Shown: positions 2,525 to 31,507 of the stretch, piece after piece | Position numbering within the stretch: the first letter of the stretch is position 1 | How the letters are laid out: each line of letters opens with the position of its first letter | IMG/VR virus record: IMGVR_UViG_3300033142_000599 | Coordinates: 1 to 31,776 of that record | Origin: a virus | Strand: one strand, 5' to 3' | DNA: 31,776 nucleotides | Translations under genes and position numbers: made by a program | The notes under the pieces: generated by a model | What the model saw: the letters and a program-made list of their open reading frames with translations, nothing else | Database searches by the model: none | What the model was told of the DNA's origin: nothing

Positions 2525-2713
2525 TTAAATTGTGCCTTTATTGTTTAATTCTTTTTGTAAGTTTGAGTAGCAAGTTTTGCAGATTATTATTTGTTCTTTA
2601 GTTTCGGGGTGTTCTTTTATTTTAAGTTCCCCTGTGTAGTTTAGTGAGCATTTAAAACACTCACTATTTCTATATACTTTAAAAGGTTGTGTTAAGTCTG
2701 AACTTCTAGCCAT
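2525..2713 (-). CDS. Small zinc-ribbon protein
   Basis: A 62-residue protein with two Cys pairs, CFKC at about 19-22 and CKTC at about 45-48, enough for one zinc-binding site. The spacing of some 22 residues fits a zinc ribbon. Its ATG overlaps the end of the 114-residue gene by eight bases. Small zinc ribbons in phage early regions often bind nucleic acid or host polymerase, but nothing here shows the partner. Confidence 0.55.
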   Translation of the reverse strand: MARSSDLTQPFKVYRNSECFKCSLNYTGELKIKEHPETKEQIIICKTCYSNLQKELNNKGTI

Positions 2714-3050
2714 TTATCTTTTCGTATATCCATTGACACGCTTTAAATATTGCTTCGGGTTCTGTGTCTGCGATACAGCTAAAGTATGTATCTTCACTAT
2801 ACTCTTGATAAACATCAGAATAATTTCCACCTCCGTGTAAATGGGAGGATATATGATATATTGATTTTTTATATGCCCATTCTTTACACTTATGTGCTAA
2901 TTCGTGAATATTAACTGTTGTTTCTCGGTCTTCTCTTCCCCAATGCTCAAATACTTTATTTTCTTTTACATAGCATCGCATTACTTTACTTCTGCAATAT
3001 CCTTTTTCGTCAAGCTCTAATACTTCATTTAATAATTCTTTATTAATCAT
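2706..3050 (-). CDS. Phage hypothetical protein, EPEAIFKACQWI family, copy 1
   Basis: A 114-residue protein with MINKELLNEVL at the N-terminus, HELAHKCKEWA in the middle and TEPEAIFKACQWI at the C-terminus. The same three blocks occur in the 115-residue product at 4021-4368, so the two are paralogues. The layout (EWA followed by a variable stretch and EPEAIxKACxWI) is common in small phage proteins of unknown role. The two genes share a 38-base identical segment at their 3' ends. The middle part (residues 55-95) has no similarity to the other copy. Confidence 0.7.
   Translation of the reverse strand: MINKELLNEVLELDEKGYCRSKVMRCYVKENKVFEHWGREDRETTVNIHELAHKCKEWAYKKSIYHISSHLHGGGNYSDVYQEYSEDTYFSCIADTEPEAIFKACQWIYEKING
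2727..2764. repeat. 38-bp perfect direct repeat, copy 1
   Basis: This segment is identical base for base to 4036-4073. It begins TATCCATTGACACG and ends CTTCGGGTTCTG (plus strand), and encodes the conserved EPEAIFKACQWI end of the paralogous proteins. The 5' halves of the two genes have diverged, so identity here suggests recent gene conversion or strong constraint. Confidence 0.9.
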
Positions 3051-3729: not shown

Positions 3730-4028
3730 TTTTTATCCAAACATTCTGAAACTTGAGCTTCAAAGCTTGATTTGTCTTCGTAATCTTCTTTGATTGTTAA
3801 AACTCCTCTTTCACTTAATAAGCCTGTTAGTTTTGCTTGTAGTGTTAGTAACTCTTGGTTGGTTTTGTTTTCTAGCTTGTTTGTATCGTAGTTGTATGCT
3901 TTTACGTATACAGTCCACAAACCGCCGTTTCCAGCTTCGTGTTTTCGTTTTAACTTTCTCATTCCCTCGTTTGTATTGTTGAAATGTTTTGATAGTATTT
4001 TGTGGTCTATGTTTATATTTTTAAGCAT
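3726..4028 (-). CDS. Hypothetical protein, 100 residues
   Basis: I do not recognise this protein. The first half is basic (ILSKHFNNTNEGMRKLKRKH) with G-G-L-W near residue 37; the second half is helical (TNQELLTLQAKLTGLLSERG) and acidic near the end. Its ATG at 4028 overlaps the end of the 4021-4368 gene by eight bases. It lies third-hand from the promoter at 4397, so it should be expressed with the EPEAIFKACQWI paralogue. Confidence 0.55.
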   Translation of the reverse strand: MLKNINIDHKILSKHFNNTNEGMRKLKRKHEAGNGGLWTVYVKAYNYDTNKLENKTNQELLTLQAKLTGLLSERGVLTIKEDYEDKSSFEAQVSECLDKK

Positions 4029-4368
4029 TATCTAGTATCCATTGACACGCTTTAAATATTGCTTCGGGTTCTGACTCACAAGTTTCATACATCATGTTTT
4101 TTACTGGTTTTCCTGTTCTCTCATAGCACAATTTCCAATATCCTTTTACTTTTTCAGTTAGGTTATTTCCTATATTTGAATGCACTTCATACCCTTTTGT
4201 TAATGCCCATTCTTTACATTCATTTGCTAATTCATGTTTATTAAGTTTTTCGTCTTGAAAATCCCTACCATTCAAAATTACATCGAAATGTTGATTATTA
4301 ATTCCATATACCTTTAGCGAATGACTTCTATTTCCTAAAACCTCTTTTAATAACTCTTTACTAATCAT
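4021..4368 (-). CDS. Phage hypothetical protein, EPEAIFKACQWI family, copy 2
   Basis: A 115-residue paralogue of the 2706-3050 product: MISKELLKEVL, HELANECKEWA and SEPEAIFKACQWI line up with the same blocks there. It is the first gene after the strong promoter at 4397-4425 (start ATG at 4368, AAGGA upstream, short leader of roughly 20 bases). The variable centre (GYWKLCYERTGKP) differs fully from the other copy. Function of the family is unknown. Being first behind a dedicated operator-bearing promoter suggests controlled expression. Confidence 0.7.
   Translation of the reverse strand: MISKELLKEVLGNRSHSLKVYGINNQHFDVILNGRDFQDEKLNKHELANECKEWALTKGYEVHSNIGNNLTEKVKGYWKLCYERTGKPVKNMMYETCESEPEAIFKACQWILDNA
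4036..4073. repeat. 38-bp perfect direct repeat, copy 2
   Basis: Identical to 2727-2764. See the first copy. The repeats are in the same orientation, 1309 bases apart, so recombination between them would delete the seven genes between 2727 and 4036 while leaving a fused paralogue. Confidence 0.9.
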
Positions 4369-4396: not shown

Positions 4397-4425
4397 ATTA
4401 TAGCATAACAACTTTTGTTTGTCAA
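4397..4425 (-). promoter_or_regulatory. Consensus sigma-70 promoter with operator-like repeats
   Basis: On the minus strand TTGACA (4425-4420) and TATAAT (4402-4397) are 17 bases apart, a perfect consensus. The spacer holds the 13-base palindrome AACAA-AAG-TTGTT (4407-4419). A ten-base direct repeat, AACTTTTGTT on the plus strand, occurs at 4410-4419 and 4425-4434, one copy in the spacer and one just upstream of -35. This is how a repressible promoter looks. It drives the genes from 4368 leftward. Confidence 0.85.
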
Positions 4426-7545: not shown

Positions 7546-7612
7546 TTTAACCCTTTTAGGTTTTGCCATTAACATTAAATTTTAAGTATTGATTGTTTTT
7601 TTGTGATTAGAA

Positions 7613-7701
7613 TGGCGGTTCTATCACTCAATAACTTAATAGAAAATATTTAGATGGTTCGAGGAGAACCGCCAAGCTTGAAACTCAAACCATTTAAATA
7701 T
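7613..7701 (-). ncRNA. Interlocked inverted repeats, pseudoknot-type leader of the initiator gene
   Basis: Arm A TGGCGGTTCT (7613-7622) pairs perfectly with A' (7665-7674). Arm B ATATTTAGATGGTT (7646-7659) pairs with B' (7688-7701) with one mismatch out of 14. The arms alternate A, B, A', B', which is an H-type pseudoknot if it forms in RNA. Arm A is much richer in G+C than its surroundings. An alternative small hairpin GGTTC-GAGGA-GAACC (7656-7670) uses parts of both stems. The element lies in the gap 7546-7822, upstream of the initiator gene, and could be a leader control element or an origin-related DNA site. Confidence 0.6.
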
Positions 7702-7777
7702 ACTCTATAAACTATTGTTGTCTATCTATGGGTCAAGACTACCCTAATCTGAAAAATTATTTCATTTTCGTATCTGC

Positions 7778-7814
7778 ATTATAACACTTAAAAACTTGAA
7801 TTGTCTTTAAGTGT
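7778..7814 (-). promoter_or_regulatory. Probable promoter and hairpin upstream of the initiator leader
   Basis: TATAAT lies at 7783-7778 on the minus strand, preceded by the run TTTTTAAG typical of T-rich upstream regions in Campylobacterota promoters; a weak AAGACA sits 18 bases upstream as a -35. Directly before it a 9-bp perfect hairpin (ACACTTAAA at 7784-7792 with TTTAAGTGT at 7806-7814) follows the stop of the gene at 7823. The hairpin lacks a T-run, so it may be an RNA end-protecting stem, not a strong terminator. Transcription from here would make the pseudoknot leader. Confidence 0.4.
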
Positions 7815-8268: not shown

Positions 8269-8429
8269 TAGTCTATCCCTATTATAAAATTTCTAAATCT
8301 TGTGTGTAGCCTTTTGACATTTTTTATATCTTTTAGTACTCTCTTTCTATCACTACATAAGAACTCGTCATCTAGTATATAAAATATCTTTTTATCTTCT
8401 CGTCTTATTATCTTTTTATAGTGTGCCAT
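8268..8429 (-). CDS. 53-residue basic early protein
   Basis: ATG at 8429 with AAGGGG eight bases before it. The product is basic (MAHYKKIIRREDKKIFYILD, then DEFLCSDRKRVLKDIKNVKR), with a beta-hairpin-like start (KKIFYILDDEFLCSD) and a helical end. That strand-turn-strand start is seen in many small phage proteins of unknown use. It is the second gene of the early operon, overlapping the next start as TAATG. Not recognised. Confidence 0.55.
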   Translation of the reverse strand: MAHYKKIIRREDKKIFYILDDEFLCSDRKRVLKDIKNVKRLHTRFRNFIIGID

Positions 8430-8438
8430 AAAAACCCC

Positions 8439-8660
8439 TTAGAACTTTAAGAGGTCTCTGCACATCGAATTAGTCATAGCGTTTATTCTAAACTCTTCGT
8501 ATTGTTCTTTATTTAAAACGATTCTAAACATATCTTCACTTGATGTAGCGTGTTTATTTTCTCTACTTTCCATTCTAAAGTCCATAAATCTTAATAGTGT
8601 TTGTCTGATTGTTTCTAACTCTTCTTTTGTTACGTTTAATCTATCTGTTAATTCTCTCAT
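8439..8660 (-). CDS. First gene of the early operon, helical hypothetical protein
   Basis: A 73-residue protein, almost entirely helical (LNVTKEELETIRQTLLRFMD; NKEQYEEFRINAMTNSMCRD). It is the first gene after the strongest promoter in the window: ATG at 8660 follows AAAGGG with suitable spacing and a leader of about 25 bases. Genes in this position in phages often encode small inhibitors of host functions, but I recognise no family. Confidence 0.6.
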   Translation of the reverse strand: MRELTDRLNVTKEELETIRQTLLRFMDFRMESRENKHATSSEDMFRIVLNKEQYEEFRINAMTNSMCRDLLKF

Positions 8661-8690
8661 TTTATATCCCTTTGTTGTTTTGATACCCTA

Positions 8691-8719
8691 ATTATAGTTA
8701 ATATTTTTAACATTGTCAA
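8691..8719 (-). promoter_or_regulatory. Perfect-consensus early promoter with palindromic spacer
   Basis: TTGACA (8719-8714) and TATAAT (8696-8691) are 17 bases apart on the minus strand, an exact sigma-70 consensus. The spacer contains GTTAA-N5-TTAAC (8697-8711), a likely operator since a bound protein would cover the polymerase site. It drives 8660 leftward. No other gene start intervenes. Confidence 0.9.
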
Positions 8720-8781
8720 GGATAAAGCATAAAAAAGTAAAAGAATTTAACAATTTGATTATTTGTATTGAAGATTAGGCA

Positions 8782-8809
8782 TAAAAAAAGCTACTCGTTA
8801 AAAGTAGCT
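8782..8809 (-). terminator. Intrinsic terminator of the control-region RNA
   Basis: On the minus strand AGCTACT (8809-8803), a 7-base loop, AGTAGCT (8795-8789), then a run of seven T. This is a textbook rho-independent terminator. It lies between the promoter at 9020-9048 and the early promoter at 8691-8719, so it ends the upstream transcript before the early operon. Confidence 0.85.
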
Positions 8810-9013
8810 GACAAAAGACACGCTGAGTACTAAATCTATTATAAATATGAGAGTATTTATATTTGTTGTCTTTTGATGAATGAAGTATAACGGATGAATT
8901 ATTAAAGCAAGGTAATATCATCCCGAGGGAGTCAGAATGATATTATTAAAAAATTTAGTGATTTGTTTCGTAAATAAAGATATACCTAAATTAACAAAGA
9001 GTTGTTAATGAAG
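8782..9013 (-). ncRNA. Candidate phage structured RNA, about 230 bases
   Basis: Between a strong promoter (9020-9048) and a terminator (8782-8809) lies about 230 bases with no convincing gene but many perfect stems. These are P1 8990-8997 with 9002-9009 (8 bp, 4-base loop, near the 5' end), P2 8952-8958 with 8986-8992 (7 bp), P3 8913-8921 with 8937-8945 (9 bp), P4 8812-8820 with 8867-8875 (9 bp), which encloses P5 8841-8847 with 8854-8860 (7 bp, 6-base loop), and the terminator stem. P1 and P2 share three bases. A 48-codon frame (8775-8921) has no ribosome-binding site. I find no match to a known RNA class; an sRNA, decoy RNA or attenuated leader are all possible. Confidence 0.65.
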
Positions 9014-9019
9014 TGAATA

Positions 9020-9048
9020 ATTATAACTAAAGTTTTATTTTAAGTCAA
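9020..9048 (-). promoter_or_regulatory. Near-consensus sigma-70 promoter upstream of the structured RNA
   Basis: TTGACT (9048-9043) and TATAAT (9025-9020) are exactly 17 bases apart on the minus strand. The -35 lies inside the last codons of the 59-residue gene. The expected start is near 9013. The transcript would end at 8782, so this promoter appears to serve the RNA rather than a protein gene, though read-through into the early operon is possible. Confidence 0.85.
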
Positions 9049-9214
9049 GATTTAATTCATATTTCAGACACATCATATTTTCATATGAGGTAAATCCAAA
9101 AATATCAGAATTATATAATAATGTGAAAGATAATATTATAGTGGTCCATATAAAAAACTTTTCAGTATTGAATTTTACTTTTTTTCCCTCTGGTATCTTT
9201 GGTATTTCTATCAT
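9035..9214 (-). CDS. 59-residue single-span membrane protein of the lysis block
   Basis: ATG at 9214 overlaps the endolysin stop (ATGA). The product begins with a basic cytoplasmic-type stretch MIEIPKIPEGKKVKFNTEKF, then one membrane span FFIWTTIILSFTLLY (about 20-35) and a polar tail ending CLKYELNLDLK. Translation coupling to the endolysin and last position in the block suggest a lysis accessory, such as a small inner-membrane spanin part or an antiholin. It is too short for a usual two-component spanin with coiled coil, so this stays open. Confidence 0.6.
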   Translation of the reverse strand: MIEIPKIPEGKKVKFNTEKFFIWTTIILSFTLLYNSDIFGFTSYENMMCLKYELNLDLK

Positions 9215-9771
9215 ACTAAAGCTGCTCTATTTCTCCAACCCTCTACATTTATTGCAAGTTTTGGATTGTCTTTAGAAATAGCTAAATAATATTCATTTTC
9301 TTTTACATCATAATCTTCACTAAATACATGCTCGTCAAAGTTATTTAATGCTCTTAATGTTTTAATACCAATAATACCGTCTATTGTAACTCCTACAACG
9401 TCCTGTGCCATCTTAATAGCTTGTTCGTTACCAATGTTAGTACCACTTATAAAAATCTCGTTAGCGATGATTTGTGAGTTAACATCATCTAGTCTACATT
9501 TACTCCAGTATCCATGTCTAAATGCTGAGATAACATCCACTTGCATTTCTTCATCATTAAATAACATAGTACTTGCACGTTCAAAATTGTTCTCACACGC
9601 TGTTAATATCTTACGTACAAATTCCCAGTCGATATTATATCTATTCCACTTTTCATATACTCCTCCGATTGTTAAATCATTCTCATTTTCGTTTATGTGT
9701 AAAAACTTCTTAGGTTTATTACTGAATTCTGCACCTTTTAATATTCTGTAGCTTTTTGTAAAATCTGCCAT
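9211..9771 (-). CDS. Endolysin: GH108-type muramidase with peptidoglycan-binding domain
   Basis: A 186-residue protein. GAEFSNKPKKFLHINENEND then TIGGVYEKW fits the variant of the GH108 lysozyme family in which Glu comes just before Phe-Ser-Asn; E15 is the likely catalytic acid. YWSKCRLDDVNSQIIANEIF (89-108) and NIGNEQAIKMAQDVVG then VTIDGIIGIKTLRALN (112-143) are the conserved C-terminal blocks of the PG_binding_3-type domain. It cuts the murein glycan to release virions. There is no signal peptide, so export relies on the holin encoded directly before it. Start ATG at 9771 is well placed. Confidence 0.85.
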   Translation of the reverse strand: MADFTKSYRILKGAEFSNKPKKFLHINENENDLTIGGVYEKWNRYNIDWEFVRKILTACENNFERASTMLFNDEEMQVDVISAFRHGYWSKCRLDDVNSQIIANEIFISGTNIGNEQAIKMAQDVVGVTIDGIIGIKTLRALNNFDEHVFSEDYDVKENEYYLAISKDNPKLAINVEGWRNRAALV

Positions 9772-31234: not shown

Positions 31235-31507
31235 TTACGTTCTATCTATATCAAAGTAATCAAGCACAAATTCACGTTGTCCTTCTAATATCCATACGCT
31301 AGTACATTTTTTATCACGGTATATTCTATCACGCTTGTATCTTGCCCTAAACATGGATACTTCACTAGCTACTAGGTCACAACTTGGGAAACATATTCTG
31401 TCAAGTTCGTTTACTGGAGAGTCGACAATCATCTCTATTGTTTCATACTCTATGTATGGATATCCAAGTTTTGCGATTATTTCGTCTTCTGTATAAAATA
31501 GTTTCAT
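31235..31507 (-). CDS. Hypothetical protein, 90 residues
   Basis: ATG at 31507 follows AAAAGGA with good spacing. MKLFYTEDEIIAKLGYPYIE is followed by an acidic helix and then a basic segment (VASEVSMFRARYKRDRIYRD) with Cys at three places (CFPSC, KKC). I recognise no family. It is the first whole gene after the structured gap and its end overlaps the upstream region of the lipoprotein, so both are likely on one mRNA. Confidence 0.55.
   Translation of the reverse strand: MKLFYTEDEIIAKLGYPYIEYETIEMIVDSPVNELDRICFPSCDLVASEVSMFRARYKRDRIYRDKKCTSVWILEGQREFVLDYFDIDRT

Follow-up and report, generated by a model that had tools for sequence, protein, structure and literature searches.

A likely stand-alone transcription unit lies at positions 8782-9048 on the minus strand of the window, the whole 31,776-base stretch of DNA that we analysed (an entire IMG/VR record, G000; 33% G+C, without end repeats). 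Judging from its sequence, we see about even chances that this unit is a small RNA (sRNA) gene of the phage, fast-evolving and nested at the 3' end of the late (lysis) operon. Because two other phages, G033 and G032, keep both the layout and the place of the unit, a stand-alone transcription unit is much more likely than it would be from one genome.

Layout of the unit and its genome setting

The window carries a podovirus-like gene set (small and large terminase, head-tail adaptor, major head protein, tail proteins and endolysin), in which the packaging genes code for a Terminase_2 small subunit and a terminase large subunit. Further genes code for a replication-initiator-like protein, a helicase-like AAA protein and a Sak annealing protein, and every assigned gene is on the minus strand. 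The closest annotated relatives of the endolysin are found in Nitratiruptor phages, a kinship that hints at a Campylobacterota host. By sequence comparison, the genome is a mosaic whose head/tail module and early module have different nearest kin. The head and tail module is nearest to L013-L019 (capsid identity of 66-78%); the early module is nearest to G031-G033, where blastp gave no structural-gene matches past the lysis end.

The elements at and around the unit are the following.

9211-9771, minus strand: endolysin gene of the lysis module (PHROG endolysin, E 1e-19; Pfam PG_binding_3; 51% identity in G032)
9035-9214, minus strand: small gene of 59 aa, the final gene of the lysis module (one predicted membrane segment, judged by eye)
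9020-9048, minus strand: predicted sigma-70-type RNA promoter, TTGACT-17-TATAAT, matching the consensus at 11/12
8782-9013, minus strand: predicted non-coding RNA of about 232 nt, its ends inferred from the promoter and terminator positions
8990-9009, minus strand: 5' hairpin of 8 bp (9009-9002/8997-8990) in the RNA fold, kept in G033
8913-8945, minus strand: 14-pair hairpin with a CUCCC loop and two G-U pairs in the RNA fold; C/U-loop hairpins with different stems are similarly placed in G033 and G032
8812-8875, minus strand: 9-bp stem (8875-8867/8820-8812) enclosing an 8-bp hairpin (8861-8854/8847-8840) in the RNA fold, absent in G033
8783-8809, minus strand: predicted intrinsic terminator, an 8-pair stem (8809-8789) followed by seven T
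8691-8719, minus strand: separate predicted early-operon promoter, TTGACA-17-TATAAT, 12/12
8439-8660, minus strand: first gene of the early operon, 73 aa, function not assigned

The first-pass annotation had claimed the TTGACT-17-TATAAT promoter, an intrinsic terminator with seven T, a separate early promoter beyond that terminator and a position at the boundary between lysis and early genes, and all of these were recovered, the unit lying between the small membrane-protein gene and the first early gene. Its claim that no gene with a ribosome-binding site fits inside held as well: the sole minus-strand open reading frame of at least 40 aa within the A+T-rich RNA region (27% G+C) has 48 aa (8775-8921), lacks a ribosome-binding site and crosses the terminator. 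At its 3' end the membrane-protein gene reaches into the -35 box of the RNA promoter. Promoter-like sites of at least 11/12 number three in the window, all on the minus strand. As shuffled genomes hold 1.9 such sites on average, the RNA promoter is not significant from the window genome alone. The third of these sites (TTGACA-17-TATAAT, 12/12) is at 4397-4425, minus strand, in the gap before gene 4021-4368. This gene and the early gene 2706-3050 share a 38-nt identical repeat (2727-2764 / 4036-4073) and a 55-nt repeat that is 80% identical (2865-2919 / 4195-4249), and they therefore look like duplication paralogues.

The unit in related phages

Most capsid relatives (66-78% identical) neither cover nor share the part of the genome that holds the unit. 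Among those of the 80 capsid-relative loci that were read closely, the lysozyme was kept only in G001, where a membrane gene and a convergent gene directly follow it and the RNA unit is absent. Searching with the early-module helicase gave nearer kin, namely G031, G032 and G033 at 81-84% identity, with G030 and L171 at 50-52%. The unit is absent from G031, in which a lysozyme is present, and was not found in other lysozyme relatives with readable downstream sequence. That G031 and G001 both bear a lysozyme without the unit counts against an sRNA gene.

G033 and G032 are divergent phages that have the early module in common with the window, and both place a promoter over the end of a small membrane-protein gene (60-61 aa, at the identical position), followed by an RNA of 117-202 nt, a terminator and early genes. 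Both RNA promoters read TTGACA-17-TATAAT (12/12). In the window, G033 and G032 alike, the -35 box overlaps the final codons or stop of the upstream gene (a consensus match, not a measure of activity), and an intrinsic terminator stands at the predicted RNA 3' end. In G033, the 60-codon gene ends in ...NLDTKE* and its window counterpart in ...NLDLK*, with the promoter lying across the end in both; then come a 117-nt RNA, a terminator that over 29 nt is 97% identical to the window's, and the early promoter TTGACA-17-TATGAT. In G032, the promoter lies over the stop codon of a 61-codon gene and is followed by a 202-nt stretch, which contains two terminator-like hairpins, and then by the early operon. 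The terminator stem sequence differs in G032; loop letters and trailing ATG-CT letters are shared by all three phages, among which the terminator site looks homologous. By arithmetic from the window's shuffled density, about 0.003 promoters of at least 11/12 are expected in a given 100 nt on a given strand. At the level of sequence, the presence of promoter and terminator in all three phages is not chance, and with common descent the three are not independent trials.

The same arrangement could serve as a terminator-gated leader, modelled on the lambda pR'/6S leader or an HK022 put-type element, in which a short terminated leader is made by default and a phage or host factor permits read-through, adding early-operon transcription. 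A constitutive-looking promoter, a structured leader of 117-232 nt and a terminator directly before the operon in three phages would suit such a device, as would G032, where the stretch from the terminator to the first early gene showed no promoter of at least 10/12. We nevertheless consider it unlikely. The early operon has its own promoter of 11/12 to 12/12 right past the terminator in the window and G033, and this second consensus promoter weakens the gated leader in both phages; moreover, no antiterminator gene was recognised, and the leader body is not conserved.

Structure and conservation of the predicted RNA

RNA folding placed all stems where the first-pass annotation had described five perfect ones, except that the 14-pair stem, with its two G-U pairs, is not strictly perfect. 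The fold z of the window RNA is -3.99 with the terminator and -2.79 without it, and 1 of 200 shuffles folded as well as the RNA with the terminator included. Values in the relatives are -2.8 to -3.0 (G033) and -4.0 (G032). Since the plus strand of the RNA region folds about equally well (z of -3.24), the choice of strand rests on promoter, terminator and synteny.

Comparison of the three sequences indicates that the ends of the unit (promoter, 5' hairpin and terminator) are conserved and its body is not. RNA length ranges from 117 to 232 nt, and the bodies are too different for a whole-body alignment of the three RNAs to be usable, MAFFT misplacing the 5' part. Between the window and G033, 3 of 7 comparable pairs of the 5' hairpin have changed on both sides and none is broken. 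A slid-partner control gave at most one compensatory pair, and 75 of 500 shuffles matched the compensatory count, which comes from two sequences; these changes lend the hairpin modest support. Neither G033 nor G032 retains the window's 14-bp hairpin or nested hairpin as such. Of the stems for which compensatory changes had been proposed earlier as a check, the 5' hairpin showed them (3 pairs); the middle hairpins lack a clear counterpart. The opposite pattern, with stems lost and a reading frame kept, was not seen: no frame is kept in G033 or G032, and no reading frame shared among the three units was noticed. Of the stand-alone RNA as originally proposed, the layout is strengthened by the promoter-RNA-terminator unit in two relatives; the single defined five-stem structure is not supported, since a clear counterpart in a relative exists for no part but the 5' hairpin and the terminator.

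Each of the three phages has a hairpin with a C/U-rich loop (CUCCC in the window; CCCCUCUCUU and CCUCUCU in the relatives). C/U-rich runs exceed those of shuffles in the window (P 0.018) and G033 (P 0.004), but not in G032 (0.26), and an anti-Shine-Dalgarno reading of these loops is suggestive only. The outer arms of the window's nested hairpin, AAAAGACA/TGTCTTTT, recur once in the relatives' sequence searched, behind a TATAAT box in a non-coding part of G031; base composition predicts about 0.1 matches, and this recurrence, too, is only suggestive. At L150 3872-3916 and 3939-4006, G031 carries a hairpin with these arms and, after it, a weak Rfam tRNA match (31.8 bits; ARAGORN makes no call).

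Divergence of the body between a persisting promoter and terminator would suit a regulator adapted to its host, but also a functionless body. If the RNA had no function, the terminator would end the late operon, the promoter would yield a by-product transcript and the body, now 117 to 232 nt in length, would drift freely. Against this, a consensus promoter across coding sequence in three phages is hard to explain as useless, folds beat shuffles in all three, and the pairing of the 5' hairpin is kept; we hold a functionless RNA to be unlikely. Alternatively, transcription itself might matter: at a replication origin, the promoter might open an A+T-rich stretch or provide the primer. T7 and lambda have origins that are primed or activated by transcription, and the 27% G+C stretch adjoins early and replication genes. 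However, no iteron-kind array of direct repeats was found in 8400-9300, and the replication gene is 1.2 kb off with a structured leader of its own; we think this improbable. A small plus-strand gene in place of the RNA (23 codons from 8938, with a ribosome-binding-site-like GAGGGAG 5 nt ahead of its ATG) is scarcely credible, since it would run opposite to every assigned gene, has no plus-strand promoter of at least 10/12 nearby and has no counterpart that we noticed in G033 or G032.

An sRNA gene remains our preferred reading, although the unconserved body and the two middle window hairpins without clear counterparts count against it. From the sequence we infer that host RNA polymerase would transcribe the unit together with the early operon as soon as infection begins, and that the terminator would stop this transcript and late ones from running on into the early operon. 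The predicted RNA may act in trans; it might do so by base pairing, perhaps via its C/U-rich loops, or by binding a host protein, and its body may evolve fast because the partner differs between hosts. Pairing with the phage's own gene starts was not above that of shuffled RNA once the self-match was set aside, so that a target, if any, is more likely to be in the host. The match of 8840-8858 to the start codon at 31507, with 17/19 nt complementary, was not among the best pairings. Pairing with the leader of the replication gene (described below) gave no consistent signal.

We put forward, as a tentative possibility, that the unit represents a new family of phage sRNAs, expressed immediately by host polymerase from a promoter at the lysis end, with a host-dependent body and an early action on host mRNAs or a host protein. 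To our knowledge, few small RNAs of lytic-type phages have been described. If the RNA is expressed, it points to the following: 1) a place to inspect in other phages, namely a promoter across the last lysis gene with a terminator before the early operon; and 2) a fast-evolving RNA with a possible bearing on host takeover.

A second structured RNA and comparison with known systems

In the window, G030, G031, G032, G033 and L171, a TATAAT box is followed by a leader that precedes either the replication gene or the small gene ahead of it.

Window, about 7603-7783, minus strand: predicted pseudoknotted rep-leader RNA, two hairpins joined by long-range pairing of UGGCGGUUCU with AGAACCGCCA
L150 4031-4230; L151 2801-2975; L152 301-478; L147 2951-3130; L171 61-293: rep-leader RNA in relatives, found by pattern search

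Within the leader, a segment X is enclosed or overlapped by a stem A and has 6-15 bases of complementarity to a segment X' further along; every phage except L171 also allowed a stem B to be named, either surrounding X' or adjoining it. In an automatic search for the three-helix pattern, 0 of 60 shuffles reached the observed score in each of the six phages. The best automatic solution departed from the hand-named helix set in G031 and L171, and in part also in the window and G030. The sequence of X differs between subgroups, the pairing holds and the architecture is kept in six phages. On these comparisons the rep leader is better conserved than the RNA at 8782-9013, and of the two RNAs in this phage group it may be the stronger. 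The leader is reminiscent of pseudoknots in plasmid rep genes, and its X/X' core in the window and G033 (UGGCGG/CCGCCA) brings to mind the 5'-rUUGGCG-3' loop known from the ColIb-P9 repZ system.

As for the RNA at 8782-9013, the earlier claim that it resembles no tRNA, tmRNA or phage RNA that its author could name agrees with Rfam, in which no family, tRNA and tmRNA included, matched anywhere in the window at the gathering score, and nothing relevant for the RNA appeared at E up to 5. A tRNA or tmRNA identity was rejected on this basis. DNA similarity searches gave no match to the window, G033 or G032 units among annotated phages and one weak match among plasmids, on the early-promoter side of the query and not covering the RNA; the exact terminator pattern was absent from viral contigs. 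In the searches made (Rfam, annotated phages, plasmids and viral contigs), no described RNA of this kind was found, and on sequence the predicted RNA is assigned to no named RNA family.

Like 6S RNA (SsrS), the predicted RNA would be a stand-alone RNA of about 200 nt, but it forms separate hairpins rather than one long rod with a central bubble, and 6S identity was rejected, as neither the 6S covariance models nor any other Rfam family matched. Phi29-type pRNA is likewise a small structured podovirus RNA from its own promoter; this identity was rejected as well, there being no Rfam match and small and large terminase subunits here instead of a phi29-type packaging ATPase motor. Lambda 6S RNA (the pR' leader) and similar late leaders share with the unit a strong promoter, a leader of about 200 nt and a terminator before an operon, whereas here the operon that follows is an early one, preceded in the window and G033 by a consensus promoter of its own, and no antiterminator gene was recognised. 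Bacterial sRNAs nested at a 3' end with a promoter inside the open reading frame include Vibrio cholerae MicX (review PMC9438474). Unlike these, the candidate here is a phage gene, is without a known target or chaperone and is without sequence similarity to a named sRNA; like them, it combines a promoter at the end of the upstream gene, a shared intrinsic terminator and a predicted stable, structured RNA.
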